Below, piece after piece: positions 22,768 through 31,331 of a stretch of 64,000 nucleotides of DNA. A model generated the notes under the pieces. That model saw only the letters and a list, made by a program, of their open reading frames with translations, was not told the origin of the DNA and searched no databases. Numbering within the stretch: position 1 is the stretch's first letter; each line of letters begins with the position of its first letter. The translations under genes and the position numbers were made by a program. Source of the DNA: Synechococcus sp. SynAce01 (GTDB taxonomy: Bacteria; Cyanobacteriota; Cyanobacteriia; PCC-6307; Cyanobiaceae); assembly GCF_001885215.1 (NCBI RefSeq), contig NZ_CP018091.1, positions 310,001-374,000 on the forward strand, read 5' to 3'.

Positions 22768-22995
22768 CAGAACTGGAAAACAGTAAAGGAATGAAGCCGT
22801 TCAAACAACTGGCTCTCAACATCGACTCATTCTCGATCACTACCATCCATGGGTTGCGATCCATCGACCCCTTTTCAAGGTCAACTTGGTCCGTCAACCT
22901 GGTCCGGCAGCGGCACTTCGCTGATCGCCGTGCTGCTCACAGCGCCTGAACTGTCTGGGGCAGTGTGAAGCACGTTCCGCTTGAGCAGGCTGCCC

Positions 22996-24708
22996 ATGCG
23001 CGAGTTCTGCGCCCTCTATGAGCAGCTCGACCGCAGCCCCGGCACCAACGCCCGGGTGGAAGCGCTGCAGGCTTATTTCGCGGCAGTGGATCCAGCCGAC
23101 GGGGCCTGGGCGCTCAGCCTGTTGCTCGGCAAACGACGCAAGCGCCTGCTCACCGGAAGGCGCCTGCGCGAAATCGCCCTGGCCGCCTCAGCTCTGCCCG
23201 AATGGTTGTTCGACGACTGCCACGGCCAGGTGGGCGACAGTGCCGAAACCATCGCCCTGCTGCTGCCCCAGCTGGCGCTGCCCGAAGCCGAGCTGATCGA
23301 GCGGCCGCTGGCAGAGTGGATGGGGGAGCGGCTGCCGGCGATCGCAGCGCTTGAGGTTCACGCCCAGGCTGAAGCCGTGCTCAGCACCTGGGCGGGTCTG
23401 CCGCCGGGCCAGGCCTTCCTGTTCAACAAGCTGCTCACCGGTGGCCTGCGGGTGGGTGTGTCCACAGGACTGGTGACACGGGCCCTGGCGCGGCTGGCGG
23501 GCCTCGAAGAGGCAGAGATCGCCCAGCGGCTCATGGGTGGCCTGGAGCCCAGCGCCGACGCCTTCCGCGCCCTGCTCGCCCCGCTGACGGAGGCGGGGGC
23601 GGTGCCGGCGAGTCGGCCCTATCCCTTCTTTCTGGCCAGCCCCCTCGATCCGGCCCAGCTGGAGGGTTGGGATCCAGCCCATTGGCGGGCGGAGTGGAAG
23701 TGGGACGGCATCCGCGGCCAGTTGATCCGCCGGGCCGGCACCAGCTTTCTCTGGAGCCGTGGCGAGGAGCTGGTGAACGAGAGCTTCCCAGAGTTGGTGA
23801 GCCTGGGTGAGGCCCTGCCGGAGGGCACCGTGCTCGATGGCGAAGTGATCGTCTGGGATGCCGGAGAGGAGCGCCCCGCCAGCTTCGCCAGCCTGCAGCG
23901 GCGGCTGGGTCGCAAGAGCGTGGGCGCCAGCCTGCGCCGTCAATGCCCGATGGCCTTTGTCGCCTACGACCTGTTGGAGTCCGGCGGCGTCGACCAGCGC
24001 ACCGAGCCGCTGCAGCTGCGCTTGGCACGCTTGGAGGAGCTGCAGGTCGCCGTTGACCAGGGTGATCATCCCGAACGGCAACGCCTGCGGATCTCGGCGG
24101 GCTTGTCCCTGGAGTGCTGGGAGGAGCTGGAAGTGCAGCGTGGCCGCGCCCGCGAGGTTGGGGCCGAAGGGCTGATGCTCAAACGGCTCGACTCCCCTTA
24201 CCGGGCCGGCCGCCGACGCGGTGATTGGTGGAAGCACAAACTCGAACCGCTCCATCTCGATGCCGTGCTGCTCTACGCCCAGGCGGGCAGTGGCCGGCGC
24301 GCCAACCTCTTCACCGATTACACCTTTGGCCTTTGGAGCCAGCCGCCTGGAACCACTGGCTTTGGCGATGCCGCAAACGCTGGCCCAGGAGAACCAGAGC
24401 CCCAGCTGATGACCTTCGCCAAGGCTTACTCCGGCCTTGATGACGCCGAGATCAACGAACTCGACCGCTGGATCCGCCGCCACACCACCGAGCGTTTCGG
24501 GCCAGTGCGGGCGGTGGAGCCCCTGCAGGTGTTCGAGCTGGCCTTCGAAGGGCTGCAGCCCTCGAAACGCCACAAGAGCGGCATCGCCGTGCGCTTTCCG
24601 CGCATCTCCCGCTGGCGCCGCGACAAACCGGCGGCCGAAGCCGATTGCCTGGCAGGCGCCCTGGCGTTGATGGACAGTGAGCGGGAAGGAAGTGGATCAG
24701 CTCGGTAG
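22996..24708 (+). CDS. ATP-dependent DNA ligase (ligase-associated repair cluster type)
   Basis: A 570-residue ligase. It has an N-terminal DNA-binding domain (about 1-200), the adenylation motif EWKWDGIRGQ with the nucleophilic Lys at about 235, DGEVIVWD, GAEGLMLKR, RRGDWWKHKLEP, and a C-terminal OB-fold to TFAKAYSGL. It belongs to the group found with an Lhr-type helicase and two nucleases (TIGR04120-like), acting in DNA repair rather than replication. ATG 22996 (MREFCALYEQL) matches relatives better than TTG 22981. The helicase gene starts 41 bp downstream. Confidence 0.9.
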   Translation: MREFCALYEQLDRSPGTNARVEALQAYFAAVDPADGAWALSLLLGKRRKRLLTGRRLREIALAASALPEWLFDDCHGQVGDSAETIALLLPQLALPEAELIERPLAEWMGERLPAIAALEVHAQAEAVLSTWAGLPPGQAFLFNKLLTGGLRVGVSTGLVTRALARLAGLEEAEIAQRLMGGLEPSADAFRALLAPLTEAGAVPASRPYPFFLASPLDPAQLEGWDPAHWRAEWKWDGIRGQLIRRAGTSFLWSRGEELVNESFPELVSLGEALPEGTVLDGEVIVWDAGEERPASFASLQRRLGRKSVGASLRRQCPMAFVAYDLLESGGVDQRTEPLQLRLARLEELQVAVDQGDHPERQRLRISAGLSLECWEELEVQRGRAREVGAEGLMLKRLDSPYRAGRRRGDWWKHKLEPLHLDAVLLYAQAGSGRRANLFTDYTFGLWSQPPGTTGFGDAANAGPGEPEPQLMTFAKAYSGLDDAEINELDRWIRRHTTERFGPVRAVEPLQVFELAFEGLQPSKRHKSGIAVRFPRISRWRRDKPAAEADCLAGALALMDSEREGSGSAR

Positions 24709-24749
24709 CGTGTCGCCCGGTAACGGGCAATCTGGCCGCTCAACAATCT

Positions 24750-27329
24750 GTGCCCAGAGCCTCACTCACCCCGATCGAAGCCTGGTTCGAGCAGCAGGGC
24801 TGGCGGCCCCAGCCGTTCCAGCGGCGTTGCTGGCGGGAGTTTCTGGGCGGCCGCAGCGGGCTGATCCAGGTGCCCACCGGCGCCGGCAAAACCTATGCCG
24901 CCGTGATGGGGCCGATCGCAGCGATGCTCGCCGAGGCGAAGCGCAACGGCGGAGCAACGCCCACGGGCCTGCGCCTGCTCTATCTCACCCCGCTGCGGGC
25001 CCTCAGCCGTGACCTGGCCCTGGCGATCCGCCTGCCTATCGAGGCTATGGGCTGGCCGTTGCGTGTGGGCATCCGCAACGGCGACACCCCCAGCGCCGAG
25101 CGGGCACGCCAACTCAAGAATCCGCCGCAGATCCTGATCACCACCCCCGAATCGCTCTCGGTGCTGCTGGCCGGCAAGGCCGCCAGCGCGCTGTTCGGCG
25201 CCCTTGACGCCGTGGTGCTCGATGAATGGCACGAGCTGATGGGCAGCAAGCGCGGCAGCCAGAGCGAGCTTTGCTTGAGCTGGTTGCGCCAGCGCCGACC
25301 CGAGCTGCGCACCTGGGCGATCAGCGCCACGATCGGCAACCTGCAGGATGCTGCCCGCGCAGCGGTGGGTGCCGCAGGCCAAGAACCAGGCACCGAGCCC
25401 CTGATCATCACCGCCAAGCTTCGGCGTGCCACCGAGATCCGCAGCTTGCTGCCCGAGACCATCGACGGCTTTCCCTGGGCCGGCCACCTCGGCCTGCGCA
25501 TGTACGAGGAGCTGGTGGCAGCCCTGGATCCGGCCGTCTCCACGCTGCTGTTCACCAACACCCGCAACCAGGCCGAGCGCTGGCATCAGTGCCTCCGCTA
25601 CGCCTGCCCGGAGATGGAGGACGGCCTGGCCCTGCACCACAGCTCCATCGACCGCGGGGAGCGCGAAGCGATCGAAGCGGGCGTCAAGAACGGGATGATC
25701 CGCTGGGTGGTCTGTACCAGTTCCCTGGATCTGGGGGTGGACTTCCAGCCGGTGGAGCGGGTGGTGCAGATCGGCTCCGCCAAGAACCTGGCGCGGCTGC
25801 TGCAGCGGGCCGGCCGCTCCGCCCACAGCCCCGGGGGCACCTCCCAGGTGCTGTTCATGCCCACCAACGCCCTGGAGCTGCTGGAGCTGAGCGCCCTGCG
25901 GCGGGGGCTGGACGCAGGGCTGGTGGAAACGCGGCGTCCGCCTGTGGCCCCGCTCGATGTGTTGCTGCAGCACCTCACCAGCCTGGCCTGTGGTCCGGGG
26001 TTCGAGCCCGAGCAGGAGCTGAGGGCGGTGCGCAGCGCCTGGAGCTTCCGCCACCTCGATGACGCCAGCTGGCAGTGGTGCCTGCGTTTCCTCGAGCAGG
26101 GCGGCGACTGCCTCGGGGCCTATCCCCGCTACCGCAAGCTCGAGCGCGAGCCGATCGATCCACCTGCTGCCGTTATTCCCAGCGTCATTCCCACCGCCGC
26201 GGCCAGCACCCCAGGCGAGCCCCCCTTCCGCTACAAGGTCGGCGACAACGCCATCGCCCGCCTGCACCGGCTCAACATCGGCACGATCACGGCCGATCGT
26301 TCGGTCACGGTGAAAGTGGTGCGCGGCGCCAGCCTCGGCCATGTGGAGGAGTCGTTCGTGGCCCGGCTCAAGCCGGGGAATGTCTTTTTCTTCGCCGGCC
26401 GCCAGCTGGAGTTCGTGCGCCTGCGTGAGATGACCGCGCTGGTGAAGGCCAGCAGCAAAAAAAGCCAGACGGTGCCGGCCTGGGCAGGCGGGCAGCTGGC
26501 GCTCTCCGATCTGCTCGCCAGCCACCTGCGCAGCGAGGTGCACCGTTGCGCCGCGGCCATGGAACAGGAGGATCCGGCCAACTCAGGCCTCGACAGCGCC
26601 GAGTTACGGGCCCTCGAACCGCTGCTGCGCCGCCAGGCCGACCTCTCCCGCCTTCCCCGCCAGGATCAGTTCCTGGTCGAAACCTGCCGCAGCCGCGATG
26701 GCAGCCACCTGTTCGCCTTTCCCTTCGAAGGGCGCTTCGTGCACGAAGGGCTGGGCTTTCTCTGGGCTGGCCGCTTGACGCGCCATCAGGCCGGAACAAT
26801 CACCGTGTCGGTGAACGACTACGGCTTCGAGCTGCTGGCACCCCGCGGCTACCCCTTCGCGGAGTTGGTGGAGTGCCACAGCGAGGAGCTGCTCGATGGC
26901 GCCAGCCTGCAGGCGGATCTGGAAGCCTCGATCAATCTCTCCGAACTCTGTCGCCGTCGCTTCCGCGTCATCGCCCAGGTGGCGGGCCTGGTGGTGAACG
27001 GCTTTCCTGGCCAAAGCAAGAGCGGCGGCCAACTGCAGATCAGCGCCGCCCTGCTCTTTGACGTGTTCGAGCGTCACGAACCGGGCAACCGTTTGCTGGA
27101 GCAGGCCAGGCGCGAGGTGATCGAGGAGCAGCTGGAACTGGGTCGCCTGCACCTGGCCCTGGAACGGTTACGGGCCAGCAGCTTGCTGCTGGAGGAAACA
27201 GCCCGGCCCGGCCCGCTCGCCTTTCCGCTGCTGGTGGAGCGGCTGAACAACAACCGGATGAGCAGCGAATCGGTGCTGGAGCGACTCGAGCGCCTGGTGG
27301 CCGAAGCCCGCCGGGCTGAAGAACGCTGA
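24750..27329 (+). CDS. Ligase-associated Lhr-Core-type DEXH helicase
   Basis: An 859-residue superfamily 2 DNA helicase. Walker A VPTGAGKT at residues 41-48, DEWHE (motif II) at 158-162, SAT in AISATIGN, and motif VI QRAGRSAHSPGG are visible, followed by the winged-helix and Lhr C-terminal regions. Length and context match Lhr-Core proteins, 3'-to-5' ssDNA-dependent translocases encoded beside ATP-dependent ligase and nuclease genes. GTG 24750 is the start. It is co-directional with the ligase and probably in one operon. Confidence 0.9.
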   Translation: MPRASLTPIEAWFEQQGWRPQPFQRRCWREFLGGRSGLIQVPTGAGKTYAAVMGPIAAMLAEAKRNGGATPTGLRLLYLTPLRALSRDLALAIRLPIEAMGWPLRVGIRNGDTPSAERARQLKNPPQILITTPESLSVLLAGKAASALFGALDAVVLDEWHELMGSKRGSQSELCLSWLRQRRPELRTWAISATIGNLQDAARAAVGAAGQEPGTEPLIITAKLRRATEIRSLLPETIDGFPWAGHLGLRMYEELVAALDPAVSTLLFTNTRNQAERWHQCLRYACPEMEDGLALHHSSIDRGEREAIEAGVKNGMIRWVVCTSSLDLGVDFQPVERVVQIGSAKNLARLLQRAGRSAHSPGGTSQVLFMPTNALELLELSALRRGLDAGLVETRRPPVAPLDVLLQHLTSLACGPGFEPEQELRAVRSAWSFRHLDDASWQWCLRFLEQGGDCLGAYPRYRKLEREPIDPPAAVIPSVIPTAAASTPGEPPFRYKVGDNAIARLHRLNIGTITADRSVTVKVVRGASLGHVEESFVARLKPGNVFFFAGRQLEFVRLREMTALVKASSKKSQTVPAWAGGQLALSDLLASHLRSEVHRCAAAMEQEDPANSGLDSAELRALEPLLRRQADLSRLPRQDQFLVETCRSRDGSHLFAFPFEGRFVHEGLGFLWAGRLTRHQAGTITVSVNDYGFELLAPRGYPFAELVECHSEELLDGASLQADLEASINLSELCRRRFRVIAQVAGLVVNGFPGQSKSGGQLQISAALLFDVFERHEPGNRLLEQARREVIEEQLELGRLHLALERLRASSLLLEETARPGPLAFPLLVERLNNNRMSSESVLERLERLVAEARRAEER

Positions 27330-27394
27330 CCGCGATTAAGCCTTACAGAAAGCGGGTCACGTCCTGCTCAACCATGACCAACGACTGATCCGTC

Positions 27395-27481
27395 TCAGGC
27401 TTTCTCCAGGCGCTTGACGATCACGGTCATGAGCACCAACGAGCCAACCAGAACGGCAAGCAGAAAGGCATTGATGATCAT
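27395..27481 (-). CDS. Candidate 28-residue single-span membrane microprotein
   Basis: An open frame reading MIINAFLLAVLVGSLVLM followed by a short KRLEKA tail: one hydrophobic helix and a positive C-terminus, the shape of small photosystem, cytochrome or membrane-complex subunits. I cannot match it to a named subunit (PsbM, PsbX, PetG, PetL, PsaM and Psb30 were considered). No strong ribosome binding site is seen. It lies between the helicase and the small hypothetical gene at 27509. Confidence 0.4.
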   Translation of the reverse strand: MIINAFLLAVLVGSLVLMTVIVKRLEKA

Positions 27482-27508
27482 GGCTTCAGGTCAATCAGAA
27501 CGCCATTA

Positions 27509-27757
27509 TCACTGAGGTGATCGTCCCTGCTCGGGAAGGGGTGGTTGGACATGCAGGCAGCGGTCACGCAGCAGGCGGGCGACCGGGAGGTTGAAGCAGG
27601 GAGGATCGCTGTCGATCTGGAGCAACCACTCCGCCATCTCCATGCGCAGGGCGTAGGCATCTTCGAAGCGCTCGGCGCGTTCAAGGCCGAGCAGGCGCTG
27701 CTCGATCCACTGACGGGTTTCGCTGGGTAACTGGCGTTGGATTCGGCGTCGGCTCAT
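27509..27757 (-). CDS. Small conserved hypothetical protein
   Basis: An 82-residue, charged, mostly helical protein starting MSRRRIQRQLPSETRQWI. There are no membrane spans. An upstream ATG at 27766 adds three residues. The pattern looks like a small cyanobacterial conserved protein, but I do not recognise a domain. It is on the same strand as the AAA+/Fe-S fusion gene, 91 bp downstream of that gene. Confidence 0.6.
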   Translation of the reverse strand: MSRRRIQRQLPSETRQWIEQRLLGLERAERFEDAYALRMEMAEWLLQIDSDPPCFNLPVARLLRDRCLHVQPPLPEQGRSPQ

Positions 27758-27848
27758 CGGAAACACTCCGGCTGACGCCTGAATCCTGATCGATCAGCGG
27801 GCCCTTTGGGTAGCAAGACGAACACATTGGGGCCAACACCTCCAGCGT

Positions 27849-30002
27849 TCAGATCGGCGCCGCCACCAACCAGCGACCGCCAGCCCCCAGGGCCAGGGCC
27901 AACAACCAGGCCAGCCACACCAGCCGGGGGCTGGGCAGCAGCAGGCGCCGCAGCAGCAGCAAGCTGCCGGCTGCGCCGATCAGCAGCACCAGGCTCTGGC
28001 AGAAGGCGATCACGTGGGGATCGGCGCTCCAGCTGGGCCAGGGGCCTGGCCACACCCCAGCCAGGCTCACCGGCAACACCATCCCCGCCTCCGCCATGCC
28101 GAGCGGAAGATGGCGGGCCAGCAACAGGGCCCAGAGCAGGGGCAACAAGCCATAGAGCCCCAGCCGCAGCCGGCTGGCGTAAAGCGAAGAAGCCGGCAGC
28201 GAGGAGGCCAGCAGCCGCAGCGCCAGGAACAACAACGACGGCAGGGCCAGGGCCAGGCAGCCAAAGGCCAGCCGCGGCAACAACGGTCCGAGCTGCAGGC
28301 TAGCTGGAGCCAGCGCCCAGCCCCCCAACAGCCGCTCCCAGAACTTCAGGCAGACGCCCCCCGCCAGCACCAGGATCAGCCCGGCTTCCCCCGCCGGTGG
28401 CACCATCTCGCGCTGCAGATCGGCGGCGGGAGGCCTCAGGCTCAGTTGCACGGAGCGATGCGGGCAGGCCTGGGCGCAGGTGAGGCAGAGCACGCAGTTG
28501 CGGTTGTCCTCGAGGTGAGCCGGGTGGGTGCCAAGCGGGCAGCCCGCCGTGGCCAGGCCCTCCCCATCGGCGGGGCCACCTTTGAAGCAGGCATAGGTGC
28601 TGCAGCTGCCGCTGCAGGTGCCCTGCTCGGCGCGCAACTCCAGGATCGAGAGCTTGGCGAACAGGCCGTTCATCCCCCCCACCGGGCAGAGATAGCGGCA
28701 CCAGAAGCGCTTCTCGAAGCGCAGCGAGCCGATCACAGCTCCCGCCGTGATCAGCAACAGCAGGCAACTGCTCAGCCAGGCGGTGTGCTCCAGATCGGCC
28801 AGTTCCTCCCAGAGCAGGATCGCCGCAAAACCAGCCGCGAGGGCCGGTGCGGCCCAGGCATCGGTGTTGCCCCGGGGCCAGGCGGCCGGCTGCCAGCCAA
28901 ACAGCCGCGCCAGCCGCTGAACGATCTCGCCCCAGACCATGAACGGGCAGAACGAGCACCACAGCCGGCCCACCAGGGGATAACTGAGCAGGATCAAGGG
29001 CCACCACCAGGCCCAGAACAGATTGAGGCCACCATTGCTGGCCCGGTCCTGGGGACCCAGCCACAGCCAGAGGTTCACCAGCACGAACACCCAGCTCACC
29101 AAGCCGAACAGCAGGCCGTTCCAGAGCCGGGGCGAGCGCATCCACTGGCGCAGTGGCGGCCGCCAGCGCCAGAGATCGAAGCGCAGCCGTTGGGGCCGCG
29201 GCGTCAGCCAGAACACCTCTTCCGGCAGGGCCACGGGCTCAAGCGACGCCAGGGCCGAAGCCGGCATCTGGCGCAGGGCCCGGTCCACCAGCCCTTCGAG
29301 CTCGCGCACGTTGCCGGGGAAATCATGGATCTGCAGGCGGCGGATCACCTCCTCTCCCACCACCGGCGACACCGCCCAGCCCAGCTTTCGGCTGTACAGC
29401 CGCAGCAAATAACGCAGCCACTCGCCCAGGTCCTGGCGTCGCACCCGCAGCGGCGGCACCCGGATCAGGGTGCAGCAGCGATCGAAGCCGGGCAGGGCCG
29501 TTTCGGTGGTGAAAAACAGGCGGCCAGCGAAGTTGCGGGGCGTCGAGCCTGGTCCTGGGGCCTGCCAGTCGCCGCTGCGGGCCAGCGTCAACAGGGCCGG
29601 CAGCAGGGCGGGATCGACCCGATCGAGCTGGTTGATCAGCAGGCTGCCGTCACCGATGTCATCGAGCAGGGCACCGGCGCCATCGCTGCTGGCACTGCCG
29701 AACAGCTCCGCCCCATTACTGCGCAGCAGGGCTCCATCGAGCTGCACCATCAGCTGGCGGCGGGTGGCGGAGCCGAAGTGGATCAGGGCGGCCGCATCGT
29801 CCTTCTCCAGGCCGGGCTCACCGGCCATCAGCACCGGTCGCCGCTCAGGGTCGCCAGCCGCCTGGCGGACCCGATCCCTCAGCTTGACGGCGTAGCGGCT
29901 GCTGCCGACGATTCCCCGCCGCGCCCGGCCCACCAGGTAGGGAGCCAGGCGGCTGTACCGCTCGGAAACGGGCAGCTGGCCGGCTTCAGGCATGGACAAC
30001 AT
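27849..30002 (-). CDS. Degenerate NtrC-type AAA+ domain fused to NapH-like membrane Fe-S protein
   Basis: A 717-residue fusion. Residues about 21-245 are a sigma-54-activator-like AAA+ domain: LVGRARRGIVGSSRYAVKLR, Walker A GEPGLEKD (61-68), ELFG (99-102), and HDFPGNVREL (226-235). The GAFTGA loop is missing, and the Walker B DE is replaced (LLINQL, 121-126). Residues about 290-450 hold membrane segments with WCSFCP (348-353) and WCRYLCP (434-440) as in NapH/NosR/CcoG-type proteins; C463, C467, C472, C488 and CVLCLTCAQACP (503-514) would bind Fe-S clusters. More membrane segments follow to the end. Cyanobacteria lack sigma-54, so a redox or sensing role is more likely than transcription activation. 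Function unknown. Confidence 0.85.
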   Translation of the reverse strand: MLSMPEAGQLPVSERYSRLAPYLVGRARRGIVGSSRYAVKLRDRVRQAAGDPERRPVLMAGEPGLEKDDAAALIHFGSATRRQLMVQLDGALLRSNGAELFGSASSDGAGALLDDIGDGSLLINQLDRVDPALLPALLTLARSGDWQAPGPGSTPRNFAGRLFFTTETALPGFDRCCTLIRVPPLRVRRQDLGEWLRYLLRLYSRKLGWAVSPVVGEEVIRRLQIHDFPGNVRELEGLVDRALRQMPASALASLEPVALPEEVFWLTPRPQRLRFDLWRWRPPLRQWMRSPRLWNGLLFGLVSWVFVLVNLWLWLGPQDRASNGGLNLFWAWWWPLILLSYPLVGRLWCSFCPFMVWGEIVQRLARLFGWQPAAWPRGNTDAWAAPALAAGFAAILLWEELADLEHTAWLSSCLLLLITAGAVIGSLRFEKRFWCRYLCPVGGMNGLFAKLSILELRAEQGTCSGSCSTYACFKGGPADGEGLATAGCPLGTHPAHLEDNRNCVLCLTCAQACPHRSVQLSLRPPAADLQREMVPPAGEAGLILVLAGGVCLKFWERLLGGWALAPASLQLGPLLPRLAFGCLALALPSLLFLALRLLASSLPASSLYASRLRLGLYGLLPLLWALLLARHLPLGMAEAGMVLPVSLAGVWPGPWPSWSADPHVIAFCQSLVLLIGAAGSLLLLRRLLLPSPRLVWLAWLLALALGAGGRWLVAAPI

Positions 30003-30088
30003 CTCCCCCGAACAGCAGGCACCGCCATAGCGACCGAGCTTGCTCCAGCGATCACCCGATTCTGGAGCCTGTTGCCGATGATGGGGCC

Positions 30089-30673
30089 ATGACCCTCACC
30101 CTTTATGGCGGAGCCCGCAGCCGGGCCTCGATGCCCCGCTGGTATCTGGCCGAGAAACAGATCCCCTACACCTGGATTCAGCTCGACATGGCCGCCGGCG
30201 AACACCGCCAGGAACCCTTCCTCTCGCTCAACCCCTTCGCCAAGGTGCCCCTGCTGGTCGACGAGGGCGCCAGCTCGGCAGATAGCGGCAGCCTGCGCCT
30301 GTTCGAAAGCGGCGCCATCCTGCTGTACCTGGCCGACCGCTACGGCCATGAGTTCAGCAGCCCGGCCCAGCGGGCCGAAGCGGAGCAATGGGTGCTGTTT
30401 GCCAATGCCACCCTGGCCACCGCCCTGTTCGTCGAAGCCGCGCGCGAGAAGGAGTTCCCACGGCTGATGGCGGCCCTCAACACCCGGCTGGAGGGCGGAG
30501 CCCCCTTGTTAGGTGAGGCCTGGGGGGTGGCGGACTGCGCTGTACAGGCCCATCTGGCCTACCTGCCGATCTTCTTCCCCCAGCTCGATCTAGGCGCCTA
30601 CCCACACGTGCAGGCCAGCATCGAGGCCACCCAGGGGCGTGTCGCCTACCAGGCGGCGATGGCCACGGGCTAA
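30089..30673 (+). CDS. Glutathione S-transferase family protein
   Basis: A 194-residue protein with the thioredoxin-like N-terminal domain (TLYGGARSRASMPRWYLAEKQIPY, then NPFAKVPLLVDEG with the cis-Pro) and a helical C-terminal domain. Typical members conjugate glutathione or reduce peroxides. It ends 7 bp before pdeM starts, so the two genes are probably co-transcribed. It is divergent from the AAA+/Fe-S fusion gene. Confidence 0.9.
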   Translation: MTLTLYGGARSRASMPRWYLAEKQIPYTWIQLDMAAGEHRQEPFLSLNPFAKVPLLVDEGASSADSGSLRLFESGAILLYLADRYGHEFSSPAQRAEAEQWVLFANATLATALFVEAAREKEFPRLMAALNTRLEGGAPLLGEAWGVADCAVQAHLAYLPIFFPQLDLGAYPHVQASIEATQGRVAYQAAMATG

Positions 30674-30680
30674 TTCGCTG

Positions 30681-31331
30681 ATGGCCAGCCACCATCCCTT
30701 CGACTGGCGGGGCCACCGCCTGGAGCTGCTCGGCGCCAAGGCCGTCTGGGATCCGGCCCAGCGGCTGCTGCTGCTTGCCGATCTGCATCTCGGCAAGGCC
30801 GAAACCTTCCAGGCCCACGGCATCCCCCTGCCCAGCGACGGCGATCGGGGCACCCTCAATGCCCTTCTGGATCTGGCCCACCACTGGCGCCCCCGGGAGG
30901 TGGTGGTCCTCGGCGACCTGATCCACAGCCGCCTCGGCCTCACCGCCGAGCTGCGCCAGAAGCTGGCGGCCCTGCCGGCCTTGCTGGGCTGCCCGCTCAG
31001 CCTGATCGGCGGCAACCATGAACGGGGCAGCTGGTTGGCGGGCCTGAGCCAGCAAGCCAGCCTCCAACGCGGTCCGCTCTGGTTGAGCCACATCCCGGAG
31101 CAGGCACCGGCAGGGGCCGACGAGCGGCTCAATCTCTGCGGCCATCTCCACCCGGTGGCGCTGGTGGGCTCCGGCAACGACCGGCTGCGGCTGCCCTGCT
31201 TCAGCTTCGATGCCAGCGCGCCACGGCTGCTGCTGCCCTCCTTCGGCCAGCTCACCGGCGGCCATCCCTGCGACCCTCGCCTGCCCTGCTGGCTGGTGGC
31301 CGACGGTTCCGTTGTGGCCTGGCCGGCTTAA
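30681..31331 (+). CDS. pdeM: Ligase-associated DNA endonuclease PdeM
   Basis: A 216-residue metallophosphoesterase-fold nuclease. It has ADLHLGKAE (residues 33-41), GDLIHSR (78-84), GNHE (111-114) and CGHLHP (153-158), the di-metal site. This short form is the Mn-dependent nuclease that accompanies the Lhr-Core/ligase/exonuclease set (TIGR04123-like). ATG 30681 is chosen because an upstream start would overlap the GST gene. The other three members are at 14379, 22996 and 24750 on the same strand. Confidence 0.85.
   Translation: MASHHPFDWRGHRLELLGAKAVWDPAQRLLLLADLHLGKAETFQAHGIPLPSDGDRGTLNALLDLAHHWRPREVVVLGDLIHSRLGLTAELRQKLAALPALLGCPLSLIGGNHERGSWLAGLSQQASLQRGPLWLSHIPEQAPAGADERLNLCGHLHPVALVGSGNDRLRLPCFSFDASAPRLLLPSFGQLTGGHPCDPRLPCWLVADGSVVAWPA

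Follow-up and report, generated by a model that had tools for sequence, protein, structure and literature searches.

Bacterial enhancer-binding proteins such as NtrC, NifA and PspF, the activators that work with sigma-54, combine an AAA+ core and lid with a GAFTGA loop, a Walker B Asp-Glu pair and a DNA-binding domain, and both sigma-54 and its activators were absent from 29 cyanobacteria surveyed (PMC3162934). The GAFTGA element has been lost in VpsR, TyrR and HupR (PMC3162934), which are DNA-binding regulators. Among membrane iron-sulfur proteins, NapH and MauN, together with the membrane modules of NosR and RdhC, have a core of about four transmembrane (TM) helices with two Cx2-3CP motifs (PMC5928378), and electrons from quinol are held to cross the membrane through NapH-like proteins (PMC8238504; PMC5928378). 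CcoG (FixG), which sits in the membrane and carries 4Fe-4S-like motifs, functions as a cupric reductase (PMC8267372). The cyanobacterial protein described here has the same AAA+ core and lid as NtrC, NifA and PspF, by sequence and by predicted fold. Unlike them, it has no GAFTGA, no Walker B Asp-Glu pair and no DNA-binding domain, its host has no sigma-54, and its AAA+ part is fused to a membrane Fe-S module. It resembles VpsR, TyrR and HupR in the loss of GAFTGA, but sits in the membrane and has no DNA-binding domain. Our literature searches returned no description of this protein or of its function.

The gene was found in a window of 64,000 nucleotides (the whole stretch of DNA analysed) from Synechococcus sp. 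SynAce01. A preliminary description, made from the sequence alone, had assigned to it an NtrC-like AAA+ domain fused to a membrane Fe-S region; the coordinates given for the frame were exact, and Pfam and NCBIfam models matched both halves of the one ORF. The features, in window positions, are as follows.

27849..30002, minus strand: whole gene, a single ORF of 717 aa
29502..29912, minus strand: AAA+ core of the NtrC/PspF type (aa 31-167), by Pfam, NCBIfam and structure match
29799..29822, minus strand: modified Walker A, GEPGLEKD (aa 61-68), with Glu in place of the Gly before Lys
29652..29696, minus strand: expected GAFTGA site (aa 103-117), loop deleted
29628..29633, minus strand: Walker B pair, changed to Asn124-Gln125
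29256..29447, minus strand: AAA+ lid domain (aa 186-249), matched by AAA_lid_14
29298..29321, minus strand: FPGNVREL block (aa 228-235), its Arg not conserved in every orthologue
28650..29132, minus strand: NapH-like membrane core of about four TM helices (aa 291-451), by TIGR02163 and AlphaFold helices
28947..28958, minus strand: CxxC(P) motif, C349/C352, invariant
28686..28700, minus strand: CxxxC(P) motif, C435/C439, invariant
28464..28616, minus strand: iron-sulfur region (aa 463-513), by conservation and Fer4 models
27864..28394, minus strand: C-terminal membrane extension of about five helices (aa 537-713), beyond the NapH match
22981-24708: neighbouring gene, ATP-dependent ligase
24750-27329: neighbouring gene, DEXH helicase
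30089-30673: neighbouring gene, GST
30639-31331: neighbouring gene, PdeM endonuclease

Comparison with a 95%-identical homologue beginning MPEAD... suggests that the true start may be Met4, at window position 29993. Homologues at E 1e-40 or better were detected in 173 of 242 Cyanobacteriia genomes and 96 of 121 genera (type 2 proteins, described below, included), and the absences listed all fall in Cyanobiaceae, the window's own family, mostly in small genomes. Against near relatives, dN/dS was 0.18-0.52 for the AAA part and 0.10-0.26 for the membrane part, both below 1, the AAA half evolving faster. A chance or spurious ORF is ruled out by this distribution, by the dN/dS values and by 13 conserved Cys/His positions, and the conclusion that the gene fusion is real stands.

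A tree separated the homologues into two types with an SH-aLRT of 100: type 1, to which the window gene belongs, has a GEPGLEKD-like Walker A, and type 2 has a GxxGxGKT Walker A with DN, SN or AN at Walker B. The window's genome encodes both, type 2 being a diverged paralogue. Outside picocyanobacteria, most orthologues are 840-880 aa long and carry an N-terminal CRP-like domain (PF00027, cNMP_binding, E 1e-8 to 1e-12 in four of the five long orthologues scanned), which is absent from the window protein and its clade and, judged by length, from a few other lineages (Spirulina; L111, L126). No class III cyclase was found in the window's genome, which fits the loss of a CRP-like input, though the type 2 paralogue there keeps the domain (cNMP_binding E 1e-14). 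Several irregular members were encountered. In one genome (L154, G257:C1:2174900-2176853) the gene is divided between two open frames of 467 and 235 aa, likely by a frameshift or sequencing error; a 660-aa frame of a distant relative (G106:C1:127560-129062) matches the AAA part twice in tandem; open frames of about 1134 aa in G304, G311 and G320 suggest an additional N-terminal extension in family f52; and a contig titled as a Bifidobacterium breve MAG (L080) carries a clearly cyanobacterial gene and is mislabelled or misbinned.

In the AAA+ half of the window protein, AAA_lid_14 scored above its Pfam cut-off (E 6.8e-9), NCBIfam searches matched the AAA part of PspF, NtrX and NifA, and Sigma54_activat (aa 31-167) reached E 7.4e-4 and 19.7 bits, just below the cut-off of 20.2; its orthologues score 51-54 bits with the same model. 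The predicted structure (AlphaFold, mean pLDDT 87.9) matches the AAA+ domains of NtrC1, PspF and FleQ, with the lid leading into the membrane helices, and a search of viral structures returned generic AAA+ matches only. From ELFG (aa 99-102) to GSLLINQL, with LLINQ as the Walker B, is a distance of about 16 residues, and the missing GAFTGA and the FPGNVREL block were both as first described. Two further statements had to be narrowed. The Walker A motif, said to be kept, does have G61, G64, K67 and D68 invariant in an alignment of the 109 type 1 proteins that cover the region (31 non-picocyanobacterial and 78 picocyanobacterial), but the Gly before Lys is Glu in 99 of the 109 (26/31 and 73/78, respectively). 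The replacement of the Walker B acid pair by NQ is correct for N124-Q125 but specific to the clade, the loss of the Glu being universal: none of the 109 has the catalytic Glu at the second position. The preceding residue is Asn in 29 of the 31 non-picocyanobacterial members and Asp in 69 of the 78 picocyanobacterial ones, giving NN in most cyanobacteria and D followed by Q, K or N in most picocyanobacteria, and because this first position differs between the groups, NQ is read as a clade-specific state. Neither a GAFTGA-like motif nor an intact Walker B Asp-Glu occurs in any of 194 homologues, a set spanning both subfamilies with some duplicates and three stand-alone relatives without an AAA part. 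The catalytically dead state is therefore a property of the family and not local decay.

The same alignment bears on a reading that we consider unlikely, in which only the membrane module matters and a vestigial AAA+ part, with no role for nucleotide, serves as a scaffold. The absence of the catalytic Glu and of GAFTGA, the loss in some members of the Arg of the GNxREL block, the faster evolution of this half and the existence of membrane relatives on their own are all consistent with it, but the four invariant P-loop residues in 109 type 1 proteins, the dN/dS range of the AAA part and the retention of the AAA-membrane fusion in nearly all members argue against it. In one picocyanobacterial subclade (L012, L013, L015, L019, L091) the ELFG segment has been lost too, a further erosion of the AAA part. 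Evolving faster, and without ELFG in that subclade, the AAA part may be heading to irrelevance.

The membrane half had been described as NapH/CcoG-like, of which the NapH side was borne out by the NapH/MauN profile (TIGR02163, aa 339-520, E 7e-11, at 42.1 bits against a curated cut-off of 213.05) and the CcoG side was not, no NCBIfam CcoG match being found at E 0.1. Fer4_5 was matched at E 8.1e-8, no FMN-binding domain was detected by Pfam, and a Foldseek search of this half against the PDB gave no significant match (best E 0.33). The 4Fe-4S cysteine motifs of the preliminary description are present. The iron-sulfur region, where AlphaFold confidence is low at aa 461-497, contains C463, C467, C472, C488 and H493, followed by CxxCxxCxxxC at 503-513, and 13 Cys/His positions are invariant or near-invariant; C349, C352, C435, C439, C463, C467 and C472 are invariant in the cyanobacterial set and C488, C503, C506, C509 and C513 nearly so. 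The CxxC, CxxxC and Fe-S cysteines are invariant in both subfamilies. One set is a canonical CxxCxxCxxxCP, and the remaining four Cys, the first set, are unusually spaced. Compared with NapH and MauN, the protein has the same core of about four TM helices and the two Cys motifs, with C-terminal 4Fe-4S cysteines that are canonical in one of the two sets, but it lies far under the family cut-off, its first motif is CxxCP, it adds the five-helix extension, and nap or nos genes were not seen adjoining it; unlike NosR and RdhC, it has no FMN domain.

This half has homologues that stand alone, namely 4Fe-4S membrane proteins of Deinococcus and haloarchaea (L157, L158, L159) with neither AAA+ nor CRP-like domains. 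The Deinococcus relative aligned over 408 columns with the C-terminal extension included (hhalign E 1.4e-46), and the haloarchaeal one at E 3e-24. Since such relatives exist on their own, the membrane half is a self-sufficient module, and it was probably in cyanobacteria that it acquired the AAA+ and CRP-like parts, a direction that we infer. In Deinococcus ficus (L157:7057-9338) the gene has a 4-bp overlap with that of a His-rich, apparently secreted protein, a pair that looks like metal handling.

The window gene sits within a ligase-associated DNA damage response set (window 22981-31331), and the helicase and other neighbours recur adjoining the type 1 gene in many picocyanobacteria, a synteny that reflects close kinship; no conserved partner was found in 22 non-picocyanobacterial type 1 loci. 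Those 22 were compared with 45 type 2 loci, or 35 after removal of near-identical ones. In 21 of the 35 type 2 loci, and in none of the 22 type 1 loci, the next gene downstream, on the same strand, is a cysteine synthase gene (Fisher p 1.8e-6, an approximate value as the lineages are related). The fetched stretches around the 35 type 2 genes also contained rhodanese (9), PetC (7), SQR-like (6), psbA (6), cydAB (5), heme oxygenase (5), HemN (5) and NrdG (3) genes, enrichments that are individually weak except for cysK and rhodanese. HemN, PetC, PsbA and CysK were named by profiles over cut-off and heme oxygenase by Pfam; SQR-like, NrdG-like and BigR-like denote similarity under curated cut-offs. 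On two plasmids type 2 is followed by cysK among PetC, PsbA, rhodanese and DUF2892 genes, and these records annotate it as 'nitrogen assimilation regulatory protein' or by a domain name only. In the window's own genome, cydA, cydB, type 2 and cysK form a run on one strand (L118:3688-10183) in which the type 2 and cysteine synthase genes overlap by 23 bp. The best relative of this type 2 protein elsewhere, 80% identical, belongs to another cyanobacterial family and a congener has no match, suggesting horizontal gain, as judged from sequence comparison. A CysE-like C-terminal tail docking into CysK found no support, since the helix that ends the type 2 proteins is loosely hydrophobic and shows no motif conserved at the terminus.

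In Acaryochloris, a group of psbA1, DUF2892, petC and rhodanese genes is induced under microoxic conditions, as are ho2 and hemN, Synechocystis has a similar group (PMC5295598), and petC2 next to sqr has been discussed for hypoxia (PMC11304991). Because of the recurrent neighbours and this published microoxic induction, type 2 is placed in low-oxygen and sulfide gene neighbourhoods, islands that point to redox control and not to gene activation. No such context was seen for type 1. The type 2 paralogue, its linkage to these genes and the CRP-like domain of orthologues are all additions to the preliminary description.

This context weighs on a second reading, which we also regard as rather improbable, that the protein, like CcoG, reduces metal (cupric or ferric) and that its AAA+ part is an added regulatory unit. 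The precedent of CcoG itself, with which the protein shares a general membrane layout with 4Fe-4S motifs, would favour it, as would the stand-alone relatives, the haloarchaeal one adjoining a DtxR-type regulator and a heavy-metal P-type ATPase and the Deinococcus one the His-rich protein. However, the CcoG profile is not matched and no cbb3 assembly genes were seen nearby, the type 2 loci are of a sulfur and low-oxygen and not a metal character, and no metal genes are conserved around type 1.

A role in gene activation finds less room. No sigma-54 (PF04552) was found in the window's genome, where positive controls were detected, and across the 242 class genomes the search returned only fragments of 33-41 codons in four, taken as chance, in agreement with the initial statement that cyanobacteria lack this factor. 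By Pfam, no DNA-binding domain, including a C-terminal FIS-type HTH, was present in any member scanned. Without GAFTGA, the Walker B Asp-Glu, a DNA-binding domain or sigma-54, the protein is rejected as a sigma-54 activator; the negative conclusion of the preliminary description holds, and neither of the contrary results that it had named, homologues with intact Walker B and GAFTGA or a sigma-54 gene, was found when looked for. A membrane-tethered sigma-70 regulator of the VpsR, TyrR or HupR kind, whose Fe-S part would sense redox state, fits worst and is very improbable: sigma-54-independent relatives are known (TyrR, DhaR, HupR and probably VpsR; PMC3162934) and, of the proteins with a solved structure, VpsR is one of the closest in sequence, but the members scanned have no Pfam DNA-binding domain and the lid continues into TM helices.

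We therefore favour, at about even odds, a membrane redox protein in which a nucleotide-binding pseudo-ATPase serves as a cytoplasmic control module and not as a gene activator. The C-terminal 60% is a NapH-like Fe-S membrane module, most likely accepting electrons from the pool of plastoquinone or of thiols, or sensing its redox state. On the cytoplasmic side, the N-terminal part derives from the AAA+ domain of a sigma-54 activator; its sigma-54 loop and catalytic Glu are gone, and the nucleotide-binding Lys is kept. Because the P-loop Lys is invariant and the catalytic Glu absent, nucleotide is most likely held without hydrolysis, as a ligand that stays fixed or exchanges slowly; such binding, and a role in redox sensing or gating, are plausible proposals of the preliminary description. 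The AAA+ part would then most likely act as an oligomerisation and switch module, and its gating could run in either direction, setting how active the Fe-S part is or relaying its redox state. The CRP-like domain would be a preceding input in most cyanobacteria, lost in picocyanobacteria. Counting against this preferred reading, the functional context is drawn from type 2 and the window gene is a type 1 gene without conserved neighbours; what we infer for type 1 is carried over from type 2. The faster evolution and partial erosion of the AAA part, the lack of a solved structural relative for the membrane half and the atypical spacing of the first 4Fe-4S cysteine set count against it too.

In a wider and more doubtful extension, which we put forward tentatively, both types would be cyanobacteria-wide electron conduits or redox sensors set by nucleotide on a dead enhancer-binding-protein AAA+ domain, and originally by a CRP-like domain too, type 1 serving nearly everywhere as the housekeeping form and type 2, with its cysteine synthase, for low oxygen and sulfide. 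The protein, kept in about four-fifths of the sampled cyanobacterial genera, unites three recognisable domains in a way that is unusual, its function being undescribed in the papers searched, and the linkage of type 2 renders a positive function testable. If our reading is true, the type 2/cysteine synthase pair would offer an entry to cyanobacterial sulfide and low-oxygen management, and sigma-54 activator domains would have been reused as membrane redox control modules in a phylum without sigma-54, and not simply lost.
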